23,085 nt of DNA, taken from a bacterium (lineage in GTDB: Bacteria; CSSED10-310; JAJRTK01). Under the pieces are notes generated by a model. The model did not search any database, was not told the origin of the DNA, and saw nothing but the letters and a program-made list of their open reading frames with translations. A program made the translations under genes and the position numbers. The stretch is from positions 1 through 23,085 of the forward strand of contig JAJRTK010000425.1 in assembly GCA_024278345.1 (NCBI GenBank), read 5' to 3'. Shown here one piece after another: positions 3,674 to 22,875 of this stretch. Position 1 is the stretch's first letter, and each line of letters starts with the position of its first letter.

Positions 3674-3747
3674 GGTTGGAGCCTCCGTGTGAGCCGGTCC
3701 CCATCGCGGGATTTTCCGGAAGTGGGGAACGGCCTGTTTGTGGAGAA

Positions 3748-4027
3748 GGGGCATCCACGCAAGGCGGGACAGAACAGGAAACAAAATGTGAAGCGTACAA
3801 AAAATGTGGGTCCAGGGAGCTAGCTCCCTGGTGGGCGCGGGGCGAAGCCCTGACAGGGGACCGGGGCCGGAGTCCCCGGACCACCGCCGGGTAACGCGAG
3901 GCGTGACCCTTCGAGTCACGCAAACGTGACCCTTCGAGTCACGCAAACGTGACCCGCCGAGCGGAGCGCGGCGTTGTCCGAAGCCAAGTTTTTTTCCGAG
4001 CCATTGTCCCGCCTTGCGTGGATACCC
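3748..4027. mobile_element. Family C hairpin-array element, copy 1 (280 bp)
   Basis: The ends are 23-bp inverted repeats with one mismatch: GGGCATCCACGCAAGGCGGG from 3749, against a right end finishing CTTGCGTGGATACCC at 4027. TGGAGAA is directly repeated at 3741-3747 and 4028-4034, a 7-bp target duplication. Inside are successive hairpins: 3812-3831 (9-bp stem CCAGGGAGC/GCTCCCTGG), 3839-3850 (GGGC/GCCC around GAA), 3861-3879 (CCGGGG/CCCCGG) and two tandem hairpins at 3902-3947. There is no convincing ORF. It occupies the region directly upstream of purA. Confidence 0.85.
3902..3947. repeat. Two tandem 23-bp hairpin units
   Basis: The unit CGTGACCCTTCGAGTCACGC plus AAA occurs twice back to back without a mismatch, followed by a partial third unit CGTGACCC. 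Each unit is itself a hairpin (GTGAC/GTCAC). The equivalent place in copy 2 (near 10486-10500) has only a single CGTGACCC, so the duplication is specific to this copy. Confidence 0.85.
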
Positions 4028-4043
4028 TGGAGAAAAAAGATTC

Positions 4044-4197
4044 GGGACCTATCAAATTGTCGTGTTTTTGCTTTACAATTTTCTTCGCCGAAACGGTGGC
4101 ACCGGCATCTTGCCGGTCTAGCGCCCTCCGGGCTGCACGGAGCCGGGAAGGAGGCCCGCCCCAGCGGTGATGTTGTCAACCGGATCTGATAGGTCCC
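4044..4197. mobile_element. Family A MITE-like element, copy 2 (154 bp)
   Basis: It starts GGGACCTATCA and ends TGATAGGTCCC, flanked by perfect 8-bp direct repeats AAAGATTC at 4036-4043 and 4198-4205. The interior closely matches copies 3 and 4, including ACGGTGGCACCGGCATCTTG and GGGAAGGAGGCCCGCCCCAG. It inserted 9 bp from the right end of the family C copy, giving two independent insertions side by side in the serA-purA spacer. Confidence 0.92.
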
Positions 4198-4239
4198 AAA
4201 GATTCGGCTCGCAGCAAAGATCTCCCAGGTCCGACCTTC

Positions 4240-4345
4240 GGCCTCCATGCGGGTTTTTTGCAGCGGGCGCGGGATTGGAGGCGAGTGGCCCGCAGCGGAT
4301 GCGAGGGACGGGAGCGGAACGCAACCCAAAAAAAGATCGGCGGTT
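4240..4345 (-). repeat. Family D repeat copy, inverted relative to 8880
   Basis: Read on the minus strand, 4310-4327 is GGGTTGCGTTCCGCTCCC, an exact match to 8890-8907, followed about 21 bases later by CCACTCGCCT, as at 8930-8939. The intervening bases differ, so this is a diverged copy. It lies just downstream of the serA stop codon. No TIR or target duplication is recognised. Confidence 0.55.
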
Positions 4346-4400
4346 TAGTTTTTTTCTTCTCCCGAAGAGTGCCTCCAAGAGAAGTTCAAGCCGGGGTTGG

Positions 4401-5987
4401 TCAATCCAAGTGGACGAGAGTCGTCTCCAGGATTTCAGGGATGCTGAGAATCTCCTTGAGAAGGCCGTCATCGACGTCGGAGTCAAGATTCAGGATGGAG
4501 ACGGCCTCTTCGAGCTGATCGAGGCGACCGAGCTGCATTCTGGCAATGTTGATCTCGTACCGGCCAAGGAGAGAACCGAGCTTGCCGATGACGCCGGGCC
4601 GGTCAAGATTCCTGGAGATGAGCATGTACCTGCTGGGCGTCGCTTCCAGCAGGAACCCGTCCAACTCTACCAGACGAATTGCCCCGGATGAGAGGACTGT
4701 TCCCGCCAACGTTTTTTCGGCGCGATCCGTTCGGAGGCAGACCTTGATCCGGTCGGCGAACGGGCGAGCTGATGCCGTGTGAATCTCGCGGCTCTCGAGC
4801 CCGCGTTCCTTTGCAACGATGCCGGCATTGACCCGGTTGATCATGCCGCTTTGGAGGAACCGGCCCAGGATCGCCTCCAGGCAGCTATTGAGAACGAGCC
4901 CTTTTGGAAGACTCGCCGGAACACCGGCCAATTCCACTTCCAAGTGGGTTGGCCTTCCAAGGGTCATCTGGGCGCTGATGGAGGCGAGGGTCGAAGCCAG
5001 AATCACGTAATCCCGGGCCTTCGCCTCTGTCTCCGGATCGACCATGAGCAGGTTGACCGCATTCTTGTAGTCGGCCTCCAGGAGAGCATCGGCCACTTGC
5101 CGCGCCACTTGATCGGAGACTTTTTGCTGAGCCTCGTGGGTCGAGGCACCAAGATGTGGCGTGACGATGACATTCGGGTGCCGGACCAGCGGGTGGTCGG
5201 GCGGCGGCGGTTCCTGTTGGAGCACGTCGAGAGCCGCTCCGGCAAGTTTTCCCGATTCCAGAGCCTCGAGGACTGCCTCTTCGTCAATGAGGGCGCCCCG
5301 GGCGCAGTTGATGAGCATCGTTCCAGGTTTGACGTGGCGGAGGCTTTCCCGGTTGATGAGGTGCCGGGTCTTGGGGGTGGCCGGAGTGTGCAGGCTGATG
5401 TAGTCGCTTTCCGCAAGGAGCTCGTCCAGCTCCATGAGAGAGATCTTGTACCGCTCCGCGGTCTCGCGGGAGACAAAGGGATCGTAGGCGATGACCGCCA
5501 TGTCCAGCCGCTGCAGCCGGACGGCGACGCCCAGCCCGATCCGGCCCAGCCCCACGATCCCCGCCGTCTTGCCGAAGACTTCCCGCCCCACGAAGGCCTT
5601 CCGATTCCAGGCACCCGACCGCAGGGATGCCACTGCCTGAGGGATGTTCCGGGAAAGCGCCAGGAGCATGGCTACCGACAGTTCCGCCGTGGTGGTCGTG
5701 CTCGCCGATGGCGTGTTCATCACCACGATGCCGCGGCGGGTCGCCTCTTTGAGGTCCACGTTGTCCAAACCGATCCCGGCGCGACCAATCACCTTTAACC
5801 CCGTGGCCGCCGCGAGCACCTCCGAATCGATTGTCGATGAGCTCCGGATGATGACCGCGTCAGCCTCTTTCACGGCTTCGGCAAGATCCGGCCCCTTGAG
5901 GCCCAACCTTTCTTCCACCTCGAGCCCACGAAGCTTGAGGTAGTCCTTGGCTTGTTGGGTGATTCGATCCAGTATCACGACTTTCAT
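4401..5987 (-). CDS. serA: D-3-phosphoglycerate dehydrogenase, long form
   Basis: SerA oxidises 3-phosphoglycerate to 3-phosphohydroxypyruvate with NAD+, opening serine synthesis. Its 528 residues fit the long form with substrate-binding, NAD-binding, intervening (ASB-type) and ACT domains. The dinucleotide motif GLGRIG is at 146-151, and the catalytic triad is R230 (NCARGALIDE), E259 and H278 (TPHLGAST). The ACT domain covers about 453-528 (RPGVIGKLGSLLGRYEINIA) and is the usual site of serine feedback control. AAGGTGG precedes the ATG. The downstream spacer to purA is 727 bp of mobile and repetitive DNA, so read-through to purA is uncertain. Confidence 0.96.
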   Translation of the reverse strand: MKVVILDRITQQAKDYLKLRGLEVEERLGLKGPDLAEAVKEADAVIIRSSSTIDSEVLAAATGLKVIGRAGIGLDNVDLKEATRRGIVVMNTPSASTTTTAELSVAMLLALSRNIPQAVASLRSGAWNRKAFVGREVFGKTAGIVGLGRIGLGVAVRLQRLDMAVIAYDPFVSRETAERYKISLMELDELLAESDYISLHTPATPKTRHLINRESLRHVKPGTMLINCARGALIDEEAVLEALESGKLAGAALDVLQQEPPPPDHPLVRHPNVIVTPHLGASTHEAQQKVSDQVARQVADALLEADYKNAVNLLMVDPETEAKARDYVILASTLASISAQMTLGRPTHLEVELAGVPASLPKGLVLNSCLEAILGRFLQSGMINRVNAGIVAKERGLESREIHTASARPFADRIKVCLRTDRAEKTLAGTVLSSGAIRLVELDGFLLEATPSRYMLISRNLDRPGVIGKLGSLLGRYEINIARMQLGRLDQLEEAVSILNLDSDVDDGLLKEILSIPEILETTLVHLD

Positions 5988-6469
5988 GGGTCCACCTTGC
6001 TTCGAACGAGCAGGTCCGTTCCGCGGAGGTTCTTGGTTGATTCTTCCGGGTGGCCGAGGTTGTGTGCGTTGTCACACACCTTGCCAAGAAGCGACACCGA
6101 TTTGATAGGCCCGGGGGACCGAGCCTGTCAACCCCGGAGCTTTGATCAACATCTGGTGGCGAAATCCGATCGCGCTCTTCTCTTAGGGCATGAATCTCGG
6201 TAAACCCTTTGCTTTCGCTGTGTTACCTTCCGCTCCCATCGGTATCGACCCCTGCCTTTGGCACGAGTTCCCCCCAGCACCCGCTCCTCGCCACTGTCGC
6301 CGCTCTCGATCCACTGACCCCCAAGGCCGGAGCACCACCCGAAATCGGGAAAGATCTGCTTTTTCCACCATTTCCAATTCAAGAGATTTCAGCCGTTGGG
6401 TGATAGAGGATCTCGTAACCTACTGGTTTCAAAGACCTGAAGAATAGGCGCCAGTCTTGGGCCGGAGCA
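5988..6469. repeat. Divergent intergenic region with family D fragment at 6287-6343
   Basis: This is the upstream part of the 935-bp spacer between the divergent serA and TPR genes and must carry their promoters, although no convincing -35/-10 pair was identified. Bases 6287-6343 repeat the block at 2318-2372 (CGATCCACTG followed by GGCCGGAGCACCACC). Bases 6222-6236 (GTTACCTTCCGCTCC) resemble the D motif. No protein-coding gene is convincing here. Confidence 0.5.
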
Positions 6470-6477
6470 AAAAACCG

Positions 6478-6676
6478 GGCCTCGGTCATGGTACCGGCCA
6501 CCCGAAAAAAGCGCGCAGCGCACAAAGAGGGGTCCAGGGAGCTGGCTCCCTGTCGTGGGTCTGGGAGTGGCGCTCCCAGCGGAGGTCCGGAGGCAGAGCC
6601 TCCGCCGGGTTCCAGGGCTGGAAGCCCTGGGGCGGCGTTTGAAAAATGCACCGTGGCCGGTACCATGACCGAGGCC
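6478..6676. mobile_element. Family B hairpin-array element, copy 1 (199 bp)
   Basis: The ends are perfect 24-bp inverted repeats (6478-6501 and 6653-6676, beginning GGCCTCGGTCATGGTACCGG). AAAAACCG is directly repeated at 6470-6477 and 6677-6684, an 8-bp target duplication. Between the ends are four hairpins in a row: 6535-6552 (CAGGGAGC/GCTCCCTG), 6561-6579 (CTGGGAG/CTCCCAG), 6588-6604 (CGGAGGC/GCCTCCG, triloop AGA) and 6612-6630 (CCAGGGCT/AGCCCTGG, triloop GGA). Reading frames across it are by-products of this structure. Confidence 0.88.
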
Positions 6677-6922
6677 AAAAACCGGATGTGCCGAGAGTTC
6701 TCGTCTCGGCACCGGTCATCGCTGGCCGCCTTGCCAGCGAGCGCCTCCTTACCGGGTAGCTGCCGGGCGAAGTCCTGACCGACCACCGAGGCCCATCGTC
6801 TCCACTGGTTTCAGCGTTTCTCTGGCTTTCGTGGTAAGAAATCCCGGTGCCATTCTTTTCTGCAACCCGGCGCCTTGAACCTTGTTGAGGCTTTAACATG
6901 ACGTACCACCCAGGATAGGCTA

Positions 6923-8818
6923 ATGTTGCGAAAAAACCGATGGCTCATCGTTTTGACGGTGGCGTGGTCCGGATGCCGCATGGCTCCCCCGGAAGACCAA
7001 AACAAAACCCAGGTTCGCGTTCTCTCTTCGAGCCCCGCGCAAGACATCCGTGTGCAGGTCGTTAAACAGAATGACGAATCGAGGACTTTACTCGCCTACA
7101 TAAGAGCCGTCGAAGCCGAGCTGGATGCCCGTATGAGCGGCAGTGAAACCGAGGCGGTCAGGCTCCTTCAGCGAAGTATCCAGCAGTTAGAGGAAGTCGT
7201 GCGCCTGGGCTATGGAACCCTTCCGCTGCGCCTCAAAACTGCTTCTGGCCTGAGGTTCTTGGCGTCGCGCCAGTCCGACTCCGCGGTGCGAAAAAAACTC
7301 ATGGAACGAGCCGCCAAGCACTATTTCGAGGCACTGCGGGAGCATGGCGATTCTCACGAGGCCATGGAAGGCTATCTAACCATCGAAAGGGCCGTTCTTC
7401 GCACGCCTTTGAAGCAGACCATCAAAGTGTTCGAAGGTCTGGCACAAGAGAAGCCCGACGCCAGAGGCATTCGTTTTCGCCTGGGCGATCTCTACCTTGG
7501 CGCTGACAGACCAGACGAAGCGGCGAACCTGTTCGGAGAGCTCGCTGGGCAATACCCCAAGAATCCCAGGGTCTGGTACCAAAAGGGGCGCGCGGAATAC
7601 ACCCAAGGAAAATTTCAGGAGGCCTTGGCCTCTTTCGAAAAATCGACGCGCCTTCAAGGCGTCACCAGCGACATGTACGAAGCGCTTCGCGCGCAAGCCT
7701 CATGCCTCGTGGCCCTTGGCGAGCGACCCCGGGCTCAGGCCATTCTCGCACGCCTGGTGGCGGAACAGGAGAGCGTTGCCGAAAACTGGATTGAGTTGGC
7801 CAAATGGCATTTCCAGGGAAAGGATTACGACAGCACCCTCAAGGTGCTTGCCCGCGCCCTCAGCCTCAAACCGCGCAACTTTCTTGCCAATGTCCTCATG
7901 GGCCGGAGCTTCATGGCTCTGGGCCGCACCGATGAAGCCCTTAGCACTTACAAACGGCTCACCGTGATGTGGCCCGATCAGGCCCAAAGCTGGGCCATCC
8001 TAGGGGAAGCCCAGCTCAATACAGGACGGTTCGGGGATGCCGCTGACAGCTTGGTCCGCGCCAGAAAACTGCGGAGCGAAATGCAAAACGGCTTCCTTCT
8101 TGCCGAAGCTCTCAGGCTGGGGGGAAAGCTCAAACAAGCCGAAAAACTTCTCACCGAGCTCCTGGAACAGGCACCGGATGATTTCGACGTTTTGCGGACG
8201 CTCTTCTTCCTGAAACTCGACTTAGAGGAGTTTGGCAGCTCCTACGAAATCGCCCGCGGGCTCCACGATAAAAAGCCCAGTTTTCTGACCAACTACATGC
8301 TGGGCGCATCCCTGGAGCGTCTTGGCCGCCTCGACGAGTCCATCGTCTACCTCAAGCGCGCCATCGACGAAAAACCCGACTTCGCATCGGCCCGGAACTA
8401 CCTTGGTTACCTCTATGCCGAGCACGGGATTCACCTGGAAGAATCCATCCAGCAGATTGAGCTGGCCCTGGAAATCGATCCTGACAACGGCGCTTATCTC
8501 GACAGCCTTGGGTGGGCCTACTATCGCCTGGGTCGCCTCCAAGAAGCCCGACGGCAATTGGTTCGCGCCGTCGAAGCCCTGGATCGCGAAGGGGCCCCGG
8601 ATTCGGTCGTCTACGGCCATCTTGGAGATATCTATTTTGGGCTCTCCTGTTACGGAAAGGCTTTCGATGCCTGGAAGAGCGCCCTGAAGTTGGAGGAAGA
8701 CCCAAAACTGCGGCGAAGCCTCAAGAAGAAGCTCGGTCGATTGGAACTCAAGCAACCCTCACCCAGGGATTGTCAGCCATCCAAGGAAGAGGCCGTTTCT
8801 CCTACGGCCCTCCGATGA
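6923..8818 (+). CDS. TPR-repeat lipoprotein
   Basis: This 631-residue protein starts with a basic, hydrophobic signal (KNRWLIVLTVAWSGC) whose cysteine 18 could be lipidated, although tryptophan at -3 is unusual. From about residue 120 to 610 it is nearly continuous tetratricopeptide repeats, for example PDEAANLFGELAGQYPKNP, RLDESIVYLKRAIDEKPDF and NGAYLDSLGWAYYRLGRLQEA. It is probably a periplasmic scaffold anchored to a membrane. No enzyme domain is visible. AGGA lies seven bases before the ATG. In related gene orders a protein like this precedes the LolB/DUF4292 lipoprotein and ispE. Its partner and exact role are unknown. Confidence 0.85.
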   Translation: MLRKNRWLIVLTVAWSGCRMAPPEDQNKTQVRVLSSSPAQDIRVQVVKQNDESRTLLAYIRAVEAELDARMSGSETEAVRLLQRSIQQLEEVVRLGYGTLPLRLKTASGLRFLASRQSDSAVRKKLMERAAKHYFEALREHGDSHEAMEGYLTIERAVLRTPLKQTIKVFEGLAQEKPDARGIRFRLGDLYLGADRPDEAANLFGELAGQYPKNPRVWYQKGRAEYTQGKFQEALASFEKSTRLQGVTSDMYEALRAQASCLVALGERPRAQAILARLVAEQESVAENWIELAKWHFQGKDYDSTLKVLARALSLKPRNFLANVLMGRSFMALGRTDEALSTYKRLTVMWPDQAQSWAILGEAQLNTGRFGDAADSLVRARKLRSEMQNGFLLAEALRLGGKLKQAEKLLTELLEQAPDDFDVLRTLFFLKLDLEEFGSSYEIARGLHDKKPSFLTNYMLGASLERLGRLDESIVYLKRAIDEKPDFASARNYLGYLYAEHGIHLEESIQQIELALEIDPDNGAYLDSLGWAYYRLGRLQEARRQLVRAVEALDREGAPDSVVYGHLGDIYFGLSCYGKAFDAWKSALKLEEDPKLRRSLKKKLGRLELKQPSPRDCQPSKEEAVSPTALR

Positions 8819-8879
8819 GCCCCATCTTTGTCACCCCGGTTTTGCGCGGCCTTCGCCGAAGAATATCTTCGTGCCCCGT

Positions 8880-9060
8880 TTCTTTTCTTGGGTTGCGTTC
8901 CGCTCCCAGCGGCGGCAATCCGTCCGCCGCCACTCGCCTTCAGCCCATACTCCCCCCGTCCGCCAACCCTCGCCTTTCATCGCCCTGGACAGAGTTCGCC
9001 GCCCTGGAGGCGTGTCACCACGCCATTTCCGGCCGAACGGTCTTCTGGACGATCAGCAAC
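8880..9060 (+). repeat. Family D repeat mosaic
   Basis: The 276-bp gap between the TPR gene and the family A element contains no gene. It holds GGGTTGCGTTCCGCTCCC (8890-8907, inverted copy at 4310-4327), the hairpin GGCGGCAATCCGTCCGCCGC (8911-8930, relative at 24-44), CCACTCGCCT (8930-8939), and GCCTTTCATCGCCCTGGA (8972-8989, exact inverted match at 10112-10129). The pattern is a patchwork of short shared blocks rather than one clean element. Confidence 0.5.
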
Positions 9061-9094
9061 TTCCGGCTGAGATTCAGAAAGTAGAGTCCCCGAA

Positions 9095-9248
9095 GGGACC
9101 TATCACATTGTCGTGTTTTTGCTTTACAACTTTCTTCGCCAAAACGGTGGCACCGGCATCTTGCCGGTGTAGCGCCCTCCGGGCTGCACGGAGCCGGGAA
9201 GGAGGCCCGCCCCAGCGGTGATGTTGTCAACCGGATCTGATAGGTCTC
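9095..9248. mobile_element. Family A MITE-like element, copy 3 (154 bp)
   Basis: The left end is GGGACCTATCA and the right end TGATAGGTCTC, with one substitution in the terminal repeat. Perfect 8-bp direct repeats TCCCCGAA flank it at 9087-9094 and 9249-9256. The interior is nearly identical to copies 2 and 4. It sits 32 bp before the start of the LolB-like gene, so it separates that gene from any promoter further upstream. Confidence 0.92.
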
Positions 9249-9280
9249 TCCCCGAACACCGGAGAATCACGGAGAACGCC

Positions 9281-10078
9281 GTGGGAGCCAATCGCTTATT
9301 CGAGATCGGGAAGCCTGGTCTCTTGCTTGTGGGGATCTTGGTGCTGGGACTGTCAGCGTGCGGACGTGGCCACTCCGATCCTTTCGCGGCGCTACCCCTG
9401 GTTTCCCATTCGGTGTCGGCCGGATTCATCGATGCCGTTTCCCGGTACCGGAAAAGCCAACAGGGAATCGAGGCTTTGAGCGGTCGGTTTGTTGGCCGTG
9501 CCGTGGAGGGGCGGCGGAAGCGGAGCTTCAAGCAACTTTTCGCCCTCAAGCTTCCAGATTCCTTGAGAATAGAGATTGAGACACCCGTTGGACAGAGCCT
9601 TGCCCTCTTCGTATCAGATGGCGATTTCTTATTTTACAGGGAAAAGGGCCAAGATTCCCCCTGGTTTTCCAAAGCCAGCACCGCCGCGATGGAGCGCTGT
9701 TTCGGCTATCGGCTCGGCGTGGAAGAGTTGGTCAGGACGTTGGCTGGATGGATGGAACCCCTGGATCTAACGGTCGGAATGGCCGTTCGGCGGGCCGGTT
9801 CCGTTGTTTACTTGGCTAGCCGTGCAAGGCCAGGCCGCCTGGAATACGGATTTGACAAAGAGGGAGGTGTCTTGCGCTCAAGAACCTTTTACGGGTCCCA
9901 AGGAAAAAGACAAGTGGTGGTCCTCTATAGGGCTTTTACCGGTTCCCAAGGGCGGATTGCTCCCTCGCGGATTTTGATTCGCGACCTCCAAGGAGAAGGC
10001 TCCGTCGAGTTGGAGGCGGTGCGGTTGCGATTCAATCCCACTCTTTCGGACAGGGTGTTTTTGCCTCCGAAAAAGTGA
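9281..10078 (+). CDS. LolB/DUF4292-like outer-membrane lipoprotein
   Basis: I choose the GTG at 9281, preceded by GGAGAA, giving 265 residues; frames opening earlier start inside the family A element. The signal peptide ends in a perfect lipobox LSAC, with cysteine at residue 27. The mature part has a LolB-like beta-rich pattern (ALSGRFVGRAVEGRRKRSF, LRIEIETPVGQSLALFVSDG, FLFYREKG, then strands near the C-terminus). LolB proteins insert lipoproteins into the outer membrane, but sequence identity with true LolB looks weak, so DUF4292-type is the safer name. Position supports it: in related genomes this gene precedes ispE and tRNA-Gln. Here ispE is not found. Confidence 0.7.
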   Translation: MGANRLFEIGKPGLLLVGILVLGLSACGRGHSDPFAALPLVSHSVSAGFIDAVSRYRKSQQGIEALSGRFVGRAVEGRRKRSFKQLFALKLPDSLRIEIETPVGQSLALFVSDGDFLFYREKGQDSPWFSKASTAAMERCFGYRLGVEELVRTLAGWMEPLDLTVGMAVRRAGSVVYLASRARPGRLEYGFDKEGGVLRSRTFYGSQGKRQVVVLYRAFTGSQGRIAPSRILIRDLQGEGSVELEAVRLRFNPTLSDRVFLPPKK

Positions 10079-10111
10079 TGGAGGCAACTCTCCGAGGGCT
10101 CTTGCCATGGT

Positions 10112-10129
10112 TCCAGGGCGATGAAAGGC
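10112..10129 (-). repeat. Family D block, exact inverted copy of 8972-8989
   Basis: On the minus strand this reads GCCTTTCATCGCCCTGGA, identical to 8972-8989. It lies just after the LolB-like gene, in spacer sequence with no gene. The surrounding bases match less well. Confidence 0.5.
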
Positions 10130-10248
10130 CAGTGGCCCACCATTGGAGCGATGGCGACTCCGGCCGCGCGGAAAGCCTGCCAGGCTGCGCAAAGCTTGGC
10201 TCGAATCCCAAATGAAGATCGTGTGGCGCATTGCTCACTTCCCGGAAT

Positions 10249-10573
10249 GGGGTATCCACTTAGCCGGGACACACGGAAAAACCCCAAAAAGACGCGCAGC
10301 GTACAAAAACGTGGGTAAGGAGCCCGTTCACCGCAAGTTGCAACGGGAAATGAGCGCGCTCCCTGGTGCGTGCGGGGCGAAGCGCGTCCAACAGCTCGTT
10401 GGCCTGCGTCACGGTCGCGCTCCCTGGTGCGTGCGGGGCGAAGCCCTGCCAGGGGATGGAATCTCCGGACGACCGCCGGGTAACGCAAACGTGACCCGCC
10501 GAGCGACAGCGAGGCGTTGCCCGGACGCTTGCGATTCCACATCCCGGGAATGTCCCGCCTTGCGTGGATACCC
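10249..10573. mobile_element. Family C hairpin-array element, copy 2 (325 bp)
   Basis: The left end GGGGTATCCAC pairs with the right end GTGGATACCC, and the inner TIR (CCGGGACA at left, TGTCCCGCC at right) matches copy 1. CCGGAAT is directly repeated at 10242-10248 and 10574-10580, a 7-bp target duplication. Internal hairpins include CCCGTT/AACGGG (10323-10347) and GGGC/GCCC around GAA (10436-10447). A 29-bp direct repeat (10355-10383 and 10416-10444) shows internal duplication. It occupies the position where ispE would be expected. Confidence 0.83.
10355..10444. repeat. 29-bp perfect direct repeat inside family C copy 2
   Basis: The segment beginning CGCGCTCCCTGGTGCGTGCG and ending GGGGCGAAGC occurs at 10355-10383 and again at 10416-10444, offset by 61 bp. 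Between the two lies a short hairpin, CCAAC/GTTGG. Copy 1 has only one equivalent. Confidence 0.8.
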
Positions 10574-10753
10574 CCGGAATGCGAGGCCCCTATCCGGGAG
10601 GCTGATGCGCATCGCTTACTTCCCGGAATCCTTGGCCCCATCGAGTGTCGGGCGCAATCCGTCGCACCCTGTGCGGAGTCACGCGCAGACCGAAAAAAAA
10701 TCTAATTTTCTGGTTCGGAAGCCTATCCACAACAGGCTCCTGGTGACCTGTTG

Positions 10754-10783
10754 TTGATCTGTCCCGGTGGTTTGGCTTATAAA
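10754..10783 (+). promoter_or_regulatory. Possible sigma-70-type promoter for tRNA-Gln
   Basis: TTGATC (10754-10759) and TATAAA (10778-10783) are separated by 18 bases, about 110 bp upstream of the tRNA. The -10 is good and the -35 mediocre. It is the best candidate in the spacer, but it rests on consensus matching only. Confidence 0.3.
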
Positions 10784-10893
10784 AAGGCGGCAGTTTAGCC
10801 TCCTTTATCGCCCCCCCCTTTTGGGACCATTTACCGTGGCGGTCGCCTCTTGACGGCCTCATGCGGGGGGGAGGGAGTGCCCGGCTGTTTTGC

Positions 10894-10969
10894 AGGGGAG
10901 TGGCCAAGCGGTAAAGGCATCGGCCTTTGGAGCCGACATGCGCAGGTTCGAACCCTGCCTCCCCTGCCA
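10894..10969 (+). tRNA. tRNA-Gln (anticodon TTG)
   Basis: A full cloverleaf can be drawn. The acceptor stem is AGGGGAG/CTCCCCT, the anticodon stem TCGGC/GCCGA closes the loop CTTTGGA giving anticodon TTG (reads CAA), and the T arm is GCAGG-TTCGAAC-CCTGC. The discriminator is G and CCA is encoded at 10967-10969. The weak A1-U72 pair is usual for glutamine tRNAs. In many proteobacteria this gene sits between ispE and prs; neither is present here. Confidence 0.96.
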
Positions 10970-10974
10970 CATCC

Positions 10975-11105
10975 TTTTTCTGACGGCAACAGCATCAATG
11001 CCCCCTCAAACCTGGACCAGATTACGGCTCTTGCCACCGATATCGGTGCGGACATCAGATTCGTGACAGGATCCGTCTGCAAGGCCGTGGGCGAAGGCGG
11101 AATTG
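10975..11105 (+). pseudogene. Decayed fragment of mlaD (MCE domain end)
   Basis: This stretch aligns with the reverse complement of the intact mlaD around 21540-21675, corresponding to residues about 117-158. Both encode LDQITALATDIGADI and then VTGSV and AVGEG. In the 86 bp from TGGACCAGAT to GGGCGAAGGC I count 8 differences by eye (about 90% identity). Several change the residue (K to R, S to F, R to C, N to K), and there is a small deletion, so it is not under protein-level selection. It begins about 6 bp after the tRNA CCA end and has no MCE start or downstream part. I infer a partial duplication or rearrangement remnant. Confidence 0.85.
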
Positions 11106-11305
11106 GCGATGCGTAATGCCCGGGGGTGCCAACGTGGGGGGGACGATGCCGGCTTTCCATCGCTCGTTTCGCTTCAGGGGGGGAACGTCAAAACTACTCC
11201 TATTGGAGGGCTATGGCCGAGTAATGCACGACCATGGGTCTTGATAAGGTTTTTCCATATTGTGACAGACATGAATGAACGCTGAGTCAAGGCGCTGGTA
11301 GAAAG
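11106..11305. other. Spacer with no recognisable gene
   Basis: About 200 bp between the mlaD fragment and the next family A element. I see no coding pattern, tRNA or repeat. If the usual gene order applied, prs (ribose-phosphate pyrophosphokinase) would lie in this area, but none of its motifs is present. Confidence 0.6.
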
Positions 11306-11313
11306 GAACGAAG

Positions 11314-11467
11314 GGGACCTATCAAATTGTCGTGTTTTTGCTTTACAATTTTCTTCGCCGAAACGGTGGCACCGGCATCTTGCCGGTGTAGCGCCCTACG
11401 GGCTGCACGGAGCCGGGAAGGAGGCCCGCCCCAGCGGTGAAGTTGTCAACCGAATCTGATAGGTCTC
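11314..11467. mobile_element. Family A MITE-like element, copy 4 (154 bp)
   Basis: Left end GGGACCTATCA, right end TGATAGGTCTC. Flanking 8-mers are GAACGAAG (11306-11313) and GAACGGAG (11468-11475), a target duplication with one later substitution. The interior matches copies 2 and 3 with only scattered changes (for example GCGCCCTACGGG for GCGCCCTCCGGG). The mutated duplication suggests an older insertion than copies 2 or 3. Confidence 0.9.
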
Positions 11468-11551
11468 GAACGGAGGCCTTCCGAAAGCTCGCGGCGCAGG
11501 CATGGACTGCAATTCAAGGGAGCGGAATCCAAACTTTCAATACAGAAAACC

Positions 11552-11842
11552 GGAGGCGGTCAACGGTGGTGCCTCTGGTCTCTTGGCTACGCTCGGGCCC
11601 GGTCGCCCGAAAAAACGCGCTGCGCATAGAGAGGGGCAGGGGAGCGAACTCCCTTGGAAATCTGACCCGTTGCCATGGAAAGCAACGGGTTCCCCGGGAT
11701 CAGCGGCCCAGCGAAAGCCTGGAGGCCGATCCGTCGCCGGGTTCCAGGGGCGTAGGCCCAGGGCTGCGCTTGGAATTCCGCACTGTGGCCGGTGTCGAGC
11801 GCAGGAAGAGTTGGCTCTGCCCACCACCGATGACCGAAGCCC
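11552..11842. mobile_element. Family B hairpin-array element, copy 2 (291 bp)
   Basis: The diverged ends are GGAGGCGGTCAACGGTGGTG at left and CACCACCGATGACCGAAGCC plus C at right. AGAAAACC is directly repeated at 11544-11551 and 11843-11850, an 8-bp target duplication. Bases from 11603 (CGCCCGAAAAAACGCGC) resemble copy 1 at 6500. A strong hairpin ACCCGTTGC/GCAACGGGT is at 11665-11690, and the common block TCGCCGGGT at 11734. It ends about 52 bp before the rplY RBS-start region and probably replaces the native upstream DNA. Confidence 0.8.
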
Positions 11843-11901
11843 AGAAAACCGTTCGGATGAGATAGTCCCGGATGAATCGACGTGAAGGAGGTAGGCTGTC
11901 A

Positions 11902-20300: not shown

Positions 20301-22022
20301 CTAGGGACTGGCGGAGGCAGCCAGGCCTAGGAGATTCTTGATATCCTTATCCTCGATGAAGAAGCCGCCGCCGATGATAGGTGTGCTCCGCTCCTGGTAA
20401 AGGGGATTGTCCCAGCCCGCCGTAAGAAAAATGTGCTTTGTTACGTAGAAGTTGCCCGTGAATTTGAGATGGGGCGAAACAGGATTGCCAAAGTCGAATG
20501 CCTCGAAGGAGAGCCAGGCCCGTTTGTTCATGAACTGGTATTGGAGGCCTAGGCCACCTCGATATTCCAGCATACCGGCATAGATAGAGAGGTTCTTGTG
20601 CCGGACCCCAAAGGCGGCGGTGATCAAGATTTGATCCAGAGCCACGTCTTGCTCCGTCCGGATTACGGTTTCCGGACCATCGCCAATGGTGATCCGGGTC
20701 TCGGTTGTGTTGAACCGTTCGTCGCCAAAGGGCGATGCCAGCAACTCGACGCGGTAGAACTTGTTGGGGCTCGGCTCCAGATCGACGCCGATGTATCCCA
20801 TGCCTCCGCGGCCTTTAAGATGCCCTTCGCCTCTCATCCGGAGGATAGTTCTGAATTTCCGGAAACCGCTCAAGGTCTCTTGTAGGCTGGTGAGCGCGCC
20901 GTTGAGATTGTCGTGGACATCGTCCCGGTTGATGAGTTTGCCCACCGTGCCCTGGCCTTCGTCCACCTTTTCCATGATGCTGCTCAAGGAATCCATCGTC
21001 TTGTCCAGCCTCGCGCTTGCAATCTTCACGTTGTCAAGGCTGTCGCCAAGGGTTTGGCCGTTTTCTTGGACGATAGTTTCGAGTTCGTTCATGGTTGTGG
21101 TGAGGGTCTCGCTGTTTCGGGTGACGAATGTGTCGAGCTTAGACATGATGCTGTCAAGCTTGAAGAGAATTTGCGGCACGCCTTGGTTGAGGCTGCCCGT
21201 GACGCCCTCCACGTTTGAAACCGTCTGCGTCAACGAACCACGGTTTTCGCTCACAAGCTCTTTCATGACGCCGGCAAGGTCGCGAATGTTCACTAGGAGT
21301 GCTGTGGCGTTGTCCTGGTTCTGCTCCAGCAGCTTGGCCATGGTCTCAGTCACACGCCGAACGTTGTTCATGGAGGCATCGATGTTCTTCTGATTCTTTG
21401 ACAAAACTTCCCGAAGGACGTCCGTGCTCGCTTGAACATTCGCAACAATTTCGTCGATCCCTTTCCGGTTGGCGGCAACGGTTTCTTGAAGGCTGGCTGC
21501 GAACTTGTCCAGGCTGATGAGAATGGCTTCGACGCGGTTGTCTTCGCCTTCGCCCACGGCGTTGCGGACGGATCCTGTCACGGATTTGATGTCCGCACCG
21601 ATATCAGTCGCAAGGGCCGTGATCTGGTCCAGGCTTTGGGGGGGGGCAGCCTTGATGCTGTCGCCGTCGGAAAAACCTTCGGCATCTGGATCGCCCGGGA
21701 GGATTTCCACGTACTTTTCTCCCAAAAGCCCCAACGAGGAAACGATGGCTTTGGAGTCTCTGGGCAGCACGATGCCTTCTACAAGTTGAAGCTCCACAAG
21801 AGCCCGGCCCCGCTCCAGCCGGATGTTTTTGACGCGGCCTACACGCACTCCCGCGGCACGGACTTCGGCGTTGGGAATCAAGCCAGCCGCCGAGGAGAAT
21901 CTGGCGCGGAGAATCTTTCCTGTCGCTGCAGCGCCCAGGCCATCGCTGACTCGCGTTGAGAAGAAACCCAAAATGCCCATGCCAAAGAGCACAAAAATGC
22001 CAACTTTGAGTTCTGTTTTCAC
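20301..22022 (-). CDS. mlaD: MCE-domain lipid-transport protein with long helical and beta-rich C-terminus
   Basis: MlaD-type proteins form a membrane-anchored ring that receives lipid in the periplasm. I start at GTG 22020-22022, with GGAG nine bases upstream, giving 573 residues. Residues 7-22 are the single transmembrane helix, and about 36-112 the MCE domain (LIPNAEVRAAGVRVGRV, LGLLGEKYVEILPGD). Residues 130-390 are heptad-rich helix with many Asn/Thr/Ser, probably a needle-like coiled coil. Residues about 405-556 are beta-strand-rich (GYIGVDLEP, LSIYAGMLEYRGGLGLQYQF, IFLTAGWDNPLY) and end with GGGFFIEDKDIKNLLG. It is much longer than E. coli MlaD (about 180 residues). It is in an operon with mlaF, 106 bp downstream of it. 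Confidence 0.9.
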   Translation of the reverse strand: MKTELKVGIFVLFGMGILGFFSTRVSDGLGAAATGKILRARFSSAAGLIPNAEVRAAGVRVGRVKNIRLERGRALVELQLVEGIVLPRDSKAIVSSLGLLGEKYVEILPGDPDAEGFSDGDSIKAAPPQSLDQITALATDIGADIKSVTGSVRNAVGEGEDNRVEAILISLDKFAASLQETVAANRKGIDEIVANVQASTDVLREVLSKNQKNIDASMNNVRRVTETMAKLLEQNQDNATALLVNIRDLAGVMKELVSENRGSLTQTVSNVEGVTGSLNQGVPQILFKLDSIMSKLDTFVTRNSETLTTTMNELETIVQENGQTLGDSLDNVKIASARLDKTMDSLSSIMEKVDEGQGTVGKLINRDDVHDNLNGALTSLQETLSGFRKFRTILRMRGEGHLKGRGGMGYIGVDLEPSPNKFYRVELLASPFGDERFNTTETRITIGDGPETVIRTEQDVALDQILITAAFGVRHKNLSIYAGMLEYRGGLGLQYQFMNKRAWLSFEAFDFGNPVSPHLKFTGNFYVTKHIFLTAGWDNPLYQERSTPIIGGGFFIEDKDIKNLLGLAASASP

Positions 22023-22128
22023 TTTCCTAAACTCCGGCGCATATAAGGAGTGGATCCCACTGCGATAGGCATGAACTGCTCGGTCGTCAGTGTGACGAGC
22101 AATCGCTCCCCGCTGTGACGGGGGCGGC

Positions 22129-22875
22129 TTAGAAAACTCGAAACGGACCTTCTTCCGATCCGGTGATGAATTGCCGCACAATAGGGTTTTGCGTGTTGTG
22201 AATCTGCTCCGGCGTGCCTTGTTCGATGATCTTCCCATCATAGAGCAGCGCGATCTGATCCGCGATTTGATACGCGCTGGACATGTCATGGGTGATCGTG
22301 AACGATGTAACCTTGAGTTCCTGCTTCAGAAGGACGATTAGCTTGTTTATCACATCGCCCATGATGGGATCGAGCCCGGTTGTTGGCTCATCATACAGGA
22401 TGACCATTGGGTCCATGGCGATGGCGCGAGCCAGCCCCACTCGCTTTTTCATGCCGCCGCTTAGGTCGGAAGGCATTTTGTCTTCATACCCCTTCATTCC
22501 AACGAGCCGCAGTTTCTCAGAAGCGATTTCGCGAATCCCCGAGTCCGGCATCTTTGTGTGGTGTCGAAGCCCGAAACCCACATTCTCCCAGACCGAAAGC
22601 GAATCAAACAGGGCTGCTCCTTGAAACAGCATTCCCATTCGTTTCCGGAGGTTCATAAGCTCCGATGCCGACAGATCTGGGACGTTTCTTCCCGCTACCT
22701 GGACCACTCCTCGATCCGGGTGCAACAAGCCCATGATATGCTTCAAGGTGACTGATTTTCCCGTTCCGCTCCCCCCGATGAGCACAAGCGATTCGCCCGT
22801 TTTTACATGCAAATCGACTCCGCGGAGCACTTTCTTCGGGCCGAAGGCTTTGTAGATTTTTTTCAAGAGAATCAA
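22129..22875 (-). CDS. mlaF: MlaF-family ABC transporter ATP-binding protein
   Basis: MlaF powers phospholipid movement through MlaE. The TTG at 22873-22875 has GGAGG five bases upstream and gives 248 residues. Walker A is GGSGTGKS (34-41), the Q-loop Q85, the signature LSGGMKKR (138-145), Walker B VILYDEP with E163, and the switch H196 in ITHD. RKRMGMLFQGAALFDSLSV is typical of Mla ATPases. It is the first gene of the mlaF-mlaD unit. The region directly upstream is a family E element, so its promoter would lie in or beyond that repeat. Confidence 0.95.
   Translation of the reverse strand: MILLKKIYKAFGPKKVLRGVDLHVKTGESLVLIGGSGTGKSVTLKHIMGLLHPDRGVVQVAGRNVPDLSASELMNLRKRMGMLFQGAALFDSLSVWENVGFGLRHHTKMPDSGIREIASEKLRLVGMKGYEDKMPSDLSGGMKKRVGLARAIAMDPMVILYDEPTTGLDPIMGDVINKLIVLLKQELKVTSFTITHDMSSAYQIADQIALLYDGKIIEQGTPEQIHNTQNPIVRQFITGSEEGPFRVF

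Follow-up and report, generated by a model that had tools for sequence, protein, structure and literature searches.

The window examined here is a contig (C364) of 23,085 nucleotides from a bacterial genome of the lineage CSSED10-310 (6.06 Mb in 550 contigs, 87.9% complete), and it carries four short hairpin-bearing elements, B1, B2, C1 and C2, in which a similar internal core is enclosed by unlike terminal inverted repeats. Our best reading is that this core is the landing site of a group II intron and has been exchanged among related transposons, with hundreds of elements in this one genome, and that it was not packaged with two unrelated transposition systems, as had been proposed from the sequence alone (hereafter, the sequence-only reading). 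We think it reasonably probable that the elements are ISL3-like miniature inverted-repeat transposable elements (MITEs) that share descent and have a mosaic history, and that a hairpin-targeting, IIC-like intron makes use of them. The statistics below are based on ~1.5 Mb of the genome's contigs, and the remainder was covered by pattern, DNA and family searches.

A common core in elements with different ends

All four elements are real, and an A-run followed by a GCGCAGCG-like block is present at 6511, 3791, 10293 and 11619, as the sequence-only reading claimed. B1 and C1 lie where it had placed them, and the limits of B2 had to be redrawn: this element starts near 11552, well outside the core, and its duplication is CAGAAAACC. 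The features are as follows.

6478..6676, + strand: B1 element, 199 bp, perfect 24-bp terminal inverted repeats GGCCTCGGTCATGGTACCGGCCAC
6470-6477 / 6677-6684: B1 target duplication AAAAACCG
6505..6552, + strand: core in B1 (A-run, GCGCGCAGCGC, CACAAAGA, first hairpin 6535-6552)
Between 6531 and 6532: B1 equivalent of the intron insertion point
3749..4027, + strand: C1 element, 279 bp, ends GGGCATCCACGCAAGGCGGGACA
3741-3748 / 4028-4035: C1 duplication TGGAGAAG / TGGAGAAA, 8 bp, last base changed
3783..3831, + strand: core in C1 (AAAATGTGAAGCGTACAAAAAATGTGG^GTCCAGGGAGCTAGCTCCCTGG)
Between 3808 and 3810: C1 equivalent of the intron point
10250..10573, + strand: C2 element, left end GGGTATCCACTTAGCCGGGACAC, right end C type
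10242-10249 / 10574-10581: C2 duplication CCGGAATG, 8 bp, identical on both sides
10286..10315, + strand: left half of the core in C2 (AAAAAGACGCGCAGCGTACAAAAACGTGGG)
11552..11841, + strand: B2 element, decayed, G-type long end GGAGGCGGTCAACGGTGGTGCC / GGCTTCGGTCATCGGTGGTGGGC
11543-11551 / 11842-11850: B2 duplication CAGAAAACC
11610..11657, + strand: decayed core in B2 (AAAAAACGCGCTGCGCATAGAGAGGGGCAGGGGAGCGAACTCCCTTGG)

The core is best seen in better-preserved copies: a B element in locus L003 and a C element in L073 have AAARCGCGCAGCGCACAAARATGTGGGTCCAGGGAGCNNGCTCCCTGG in common, with 44 of 48 positions identical. For the significance of the core, alignment scores were compared with those of 500 shuffles that keep every hairpin. 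The L003 and L073 cores score 38, where no shuffle exceeds 16, and in the window both B1 versus C1 (20.5; maximum 16.0) and B1 versus C2 (15.0; maximum 13.0) exceed all 500 shuffles. The scores of B2 versus C1 and B2 versus C2 are reached by 110 and 24 of the 500 shuffles, respectively; B2 is too decayed to prove the core alone.

The core takes in the A-run and the first hairpin, and beyond both the similarity is at chance level. Close to the intron point (within 20 bp), where positions -5 to -1 and 0-9 are conditioned by the search motif, identity between families is 0.76-0.82, and it reaches a background of ~0.25 beyond -40 and +50. In all families the core has the same orientation and the same place with respect to the left end. 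Thus an internal core common to B and C does exist, but it is smaller than had been proposed and of another nature. In C2 the first hairpin of the core is swapped for a CCCGTT..AACGGG module, and related modules occur in many C copies. The second core block that had been put forward, CCGCCGGGT, was rejected since it varies among the C copies: it occurs at 9 of 66 C-type sites, compared with 16 for CCTTCGGGT and 11 for CCTACGGGT.

The phylum is represented in our comparison set by eight genomes, the window's genome being the single representative of its family, and the core was found in none of the seven others. In the metagenome-assembled genome RUG14638 of Ruminococcus, an unrelated member of the Bacillota, 14 listed copies of ACGYGARTAGCGCGTAAGCGC-GTGGGTCCAGGGAGCTTGCTCCCTGG (L232-L246 except L242) often precede variable hairpin arrays and show no obvious terminal repeats, so that the same hairpin grammar appears in a distant genome. 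No group II intron above the Rfam cut-off was found at these RUG14638 hairpin loci.

A group II intron inserted in the core

In four cores belonging to different end families, TGTGG is followed by an identical foreign sequence, ATAGGGNTAGGG, and an Rfam match in L224 identifies this sequence as a group II intron. The genome contains 25 matches to RF00029 (domain V), 22 of them above the gathering score and 16 sharing the identical top score. Of 23 distinct 3' junctions, 22 are at the core position, and they fall in elements with B (8), D (2), G (3), C (2), Cv (2) and C3 (4) ends, plus one unclear case; these end types were assigned partly by an automated procedure and by eye where ambiguous. 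The odd 3' junction, in L264, is beside a different repeat, a GGCGGCAGTCCGTCCGCCGCC / GGGTTGCGTTCCGCTCCC-like sequence. At the other side, seven of the eight 5' junctions come directly after CCAGGGAGCNNGCTCCCTGGAC (B 3, G 1, C 3) and the eighth after another C hairpin, so that insertion just 3' of a hairpin, a trait of group IIC introns, is seen at all eight. The integration point is GCTCCCTGGAC^CCACATTTTTG, or TGTGG^GTCCAGGG on the element strand, directly 3' of the first hairpin. That only eight 5' ends stand beside 23 3' ends points to frequent truncation of the copies or to gaps in the assembly.

The intron reverse transcriptase is present as fragments only, which match the group II reverse transcriptase/maturase model TIGR04416 (E=1.9e-12) and are homologous to the solved group II reverse transcriptases LtrA and GsI-IIC in the PDB. 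Group IIC introns require an upstream hairpin and the short intron-binding sites IBS1 and IBS3 (PMC7923331, PMC3898094). Judging from its insertion 3' of a hairpin, the intron appears to be IIC-like. A second type of group II intron, with domain V GAGCCGTATGTGA and a longer reverse transcriptase reading frame in L267, also occurs near these repeats (L267, L269 and L270, on contigs C336, C190 and C456).

End families and target duplications

Pattern matching at ≤3 mismatches located 413 C ends and 219 B ends in the genome, and a backwards control gave 0 sites. Each is one member of a swarm of variants. The B end belongs to GGNNTNGGTCATNG...CGGCCACCC, which unites the B, D, E and F ends and a longer form, G, that has an additional hairpin. 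The C end belongs to a second swarm, GGGTATCCACNNAAGNCGGGACA and its variants. Both are GG-starting repeats of 23-24 bp.

Exact 8-bp duplications flank 12 of the 43 paired C elements, with none of the 43 showing an exact duplication of 6 or 7 bp, and 9 of the 22 B-type elements; they are also found in A, D and G elements. The sequence-only reading had contrasted 8 bp in one family with 7 bp in the other. This contrast, which made up half of its case for two systems, is an error because C elements also give 8 bp. These ends and duplications also set the elements apart from REP/REPIN sequences, taken as palindromes that have neither long terminal repeats nor a target duplication. Nesting is frequent, with B in C (L181 13406, L006), C in E (L085) and A in C (L131).

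A probable ISL3 origin of the C family

Contig C5 opens with an ISL3-family transposase gene that a B element has divided into two pieces (gene and downstream region, L100 1-1238; inserted B MITE, 335-535, with duplication GTTCAAGC). The pieces match PF01610 with 83.7 and 70.0 bits and NF033550 with 85.7 and 68.6 bits, the latter below the whole-protein cut-off because each piece is a fragment. After the stop codon come ~30 bases, AAAAATGTGGGTCCAG, a 270-bp module, C hairpins and a C-type right end, and a C element on contig C205 carries the same module at 81% identity. This order on C5, together with the module on C205, argues that C elements are deletion derivatives of an ISL3 element. Most simply, they are internally deleted ISL3 copies, and the core with its hairpins is the 3' noncoding region of the ISL3 element; the link is strong but incomplete, as the left end on C5 is missing. 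The 270-bp module occurs in a C MITE at L131/L223. C elements generally contain tandem 23-bp units GTCACGCAAACGTGACCCTTCGA, as at 3901-3963 in the window, whose number varies by copy up to at least four.

Control ISL3 elements from two plasmids have GG-starting ends and 8-bp duplications, one of which is a weak T run, and ISPpu12a is recorded with 24-bp ends and an 8-bp duplication (PMC4133298). B-type elements are probably also moved by an ISL3-related transposase; we do not file them as proven ISL3 members because no ISL3 transposase with B-type ends was found. The search of the assembled genome for ISL3 transposases returned the C5 gene and a fragment on C395 only, and a phylum-wide search one further ISL3 fragment. 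The ISL3 zinc-ribbon domain PF14690 was not found, a search for long-range end pairs with duplications gave no autonomous element in 0.98 Mb, and an all-against-all comparison of open reading frames revealed no evident multicopy transposase gene. Transposase relatives were absent from viral contigs, and those in plasmids were only distant ISL3 proteins (<60% identity). A fragment of DDE_Tnp_1 (PF01609) was considered and set aside, being unlinked to B or C ends.

Core subtypes and chimeric elements

Core subtypes do not follow the end types. In a set of 142 classified sites, the GCGCAGCGCACAAARATGTGG subtype is shared by B, D and G elements and the largest C subfamily, and the GCGTCGTACATRAAYGTGG subtype by elements of C, C3 and E type. 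The core of the commonest C subfamily differs by one mismatch in 24 from that of D/G elements and by three mismatches from that of the C group second in frequency. The core's small hairpin has a G-C pair in 42 of 43 B-type elements; in C elements it has A-T in 30 cases and a mismatched A-C in 19. The mismatch is confined to a C subfamily with AAGATTGGAAA-like spacers and a B/D/G-like downstream base (TGTGG in 18 of 19). Such a pattern would result if a C-type left side and a B/D/G-type right side had been joined within the hairpin; two mutations in one progenitor could produce it as well. Two elements look chimeric: at L181 4687 the end is B-like and the interior C-type, and in L107 the left flank is C-like and the interior B-type.

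Other repeats in the window

Another MITE, family A (~154 bp, ends GGGACCTATCA, 8-bp duplications such as AAAGATTC and ATTCAGGT), has four copies in the window, the second of which is 16 bp from C1.

136-292: family A copy
4044-4200: family A copy
9095-9251: family A copy
11314-11470: family A copy

Recurring GGCGGCAGTCCGTCCGCCGCC / GGGTTGCGTTCCGCTCCC repeats with no relationship to the A, B or C families lie at 4-52, 4310-4336 and 8881-8939. A 99-bp inverted repeat (11001-11099 versus 21545-21643, 89% complementary) is explained by a stray partial copy, at 11001-11099, of the reading frame 20301-22289, just downstream of the tRNA gene 10894-10966.

Discussion

We propose that the four window elements would be short non-autonomous transposons of one lineage within a diverse ISL3-like superfamily. 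The C type probably arose by internal deletion of an ISL3 insertion sequence that has the hairpin array as its 3' noncoding region, which the C5 locus supports directly for C. B, D, E, F and G elements follow the same plan (ends of 23-24 bp that start with GG, a duplication of 8 bp, an A-rich spacer, the core and a hairpin array) and are probably mobilised by a related transposase. The ~48-bp core is the integration site of the multicopy group II intron, its position read from the junctions and its putative class from the hairpin. The occurrence of one core between unlike flanks probably reflects common descent plus exchange between co-resident copies; exchange is supported by the chimeras and by core subtypes that cross end types. 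The intron may in turn spread via the many hairpin sites that the MITEs supply. Descent and recombination cover the conserved 22-26 bp on the far side of the site without further assumptions, while the requirements of the intron account for its own position. As a more novel extension, to which we give a low probability, there may be a three-part relation in which ISL3-type transposition scatters hundreds of uniform hairpin sites, the intron colonises them, and conversion or recombination associated with the intron at this point preserves one core while the ends and interiors of the MITE families diverge.

Several observations weigh against this proposal. A hairpin and a few bases suffice for the intron, so that targeting leaves the conservation of 22-26 bp across the site unexplained. 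The sole ISL3 gene near a C end is partial and interrupted by a B element, and the contig starts within it, leaving its left end unseen. A transposase with B-type ends is absent from the assembled genome, which is 87.9% complete with repeats under-assembled. Many of the 550 contigs terminate inside these repeats, and because of this fragmentation the 5' and 3' junctions of the intron are unpairable and some chimeras may be misjoins. The conditioning of the identity profile by the search motif, given above, belongs here too.

The alternative that survives best, which we nevertheless regard as unlikely, is pure descent from one ISL3-like ancestor, the ends having diverged with their transposases and the core being the part that changed most slowly, without exchange between families. 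In its favour, all families are alike in architecture and orientation and in the lengths of their ends and duplications. Against it, the GCGTCGTACATRAAYGTGG core subtype is shared by C, C3 and E elements, the core of the common C subfamily is nearer to D/G and has an A-C mismatch as if two types had been joined, and L181 and L107 are chimeric. Few sites are involved in all this, and mutation could be the cause.

Rather less probable is a spread driven by the intron itself, whereby short flanking tracts are co-converted at intron entry or loss and the core is a homing footprint copied between families. It would account for a common block centred on the insertion point between unrelated flanks and for introns in the cores of all major end types, but most cores are observed without an intron and ordinary recombination gives the same pattern. 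Extensive conversion of flanks is not known from bacterial retrohoming.

The proposal that a single structured core came to be carried by two unrelated transposition systems, differing in the length of their duplications, now has a slim chance. It was right about a common core with different ends: B and C ends lack clear similarity past the GG start, both core flanks differ, and mosaic, chimeric elements exist. That a group II intron inserts in the core was not visible to it. The two systems themselves are unsupported because both families have GG-starting 23-24 bp repeats and 8-bp duplications, the ends occur in variant swarms, and a C-type right end with the hairpin array is attached to an ISL3-family transposase gene, the C interior being part of the noncoding region of that ISL3 element; the core also keeps a constant position and orientation in all families. 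An assembly artefact, in which the assembler joined B and C at the 48-bp repeat, is suggested by the 550 contigs that so often end in repeats, but it is very improbable since fixed differences tell B cores from C cores, and both kinds are found in many contigs, between unique flanks and with duplications that match. That the similarity is merely that of GC-rich hairpins, or chance, is negligible: the motif recurs in the unrelated Ruminococcus genome (14 listed stretches) and once in Rubritepida, and B2 against C1 or C2 alone falls inside the shuffle range, but L003 versus L073, B1, C1 and the better copies beat the hairpin-preserving shuffles, which refutes it for them.

The ISL3-type MITEs and the hairpin-targeting group II intron are known kinds of element combined in a new variation. 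As in ISL3-family insertion sequences and derived MITEs, a PF01610/NF033550 transposase stands by a C-type end, with GG-starting 23-24 bp repeats and an 8-bp duplication; unlike them, these elements have long 3' hairpin arrays and a swarm of end variants, and the B-type transposase was not found here. The intron resembles group IIC introns (bacterial class C, including the IIC-attC integron introns) in its insertion 3' of a hairpin, GTGCG/GTACG start, domain V and reverse transcriptase (PMC7923331, PMC3898094), but nearly all copies here are in one core motif of several MITE families and not in terminators or attC sites. A self-splicing intron tied to a MITE or insertion sequence is found in the group I intron/MITE pair of Ca. 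Thiomargarita nelsonii and in IStrons (PMC4853749); those introns are of another class, and here the insertion is in a MITE core across families with different ends. Tn3-derived inverted-repeat miniature elements (TIMEs) are likewise mosaic, non-autonomous and miniature, but belong to the Tn3 family, have 5-6 bp duplications and are mostly single copy (PMC4133298). High-copy hairpin DNA is also typical of REP/REPIN sequences (PMC3116915). We found no description of a group II intron with a common site in several MITE families, a weak negative as subscription papers were outside our coverage. REP/REPIN palindromes, to our knowledge, are without the 23-24 bp ends and 8-bp target duplications of the elements described here.

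These elements thus join a DNA transposon system to a retroelement, with MITEs as distributed landing pads and a core centred on the insertion point. They also caution that new transposition systems should not be inferred from a few decayed copies. If exchange at the intron point is borne out, it becomes testable in what way mobile introns act on repeat families that look unrelated, and how ends and interiors are traded among MITE families.

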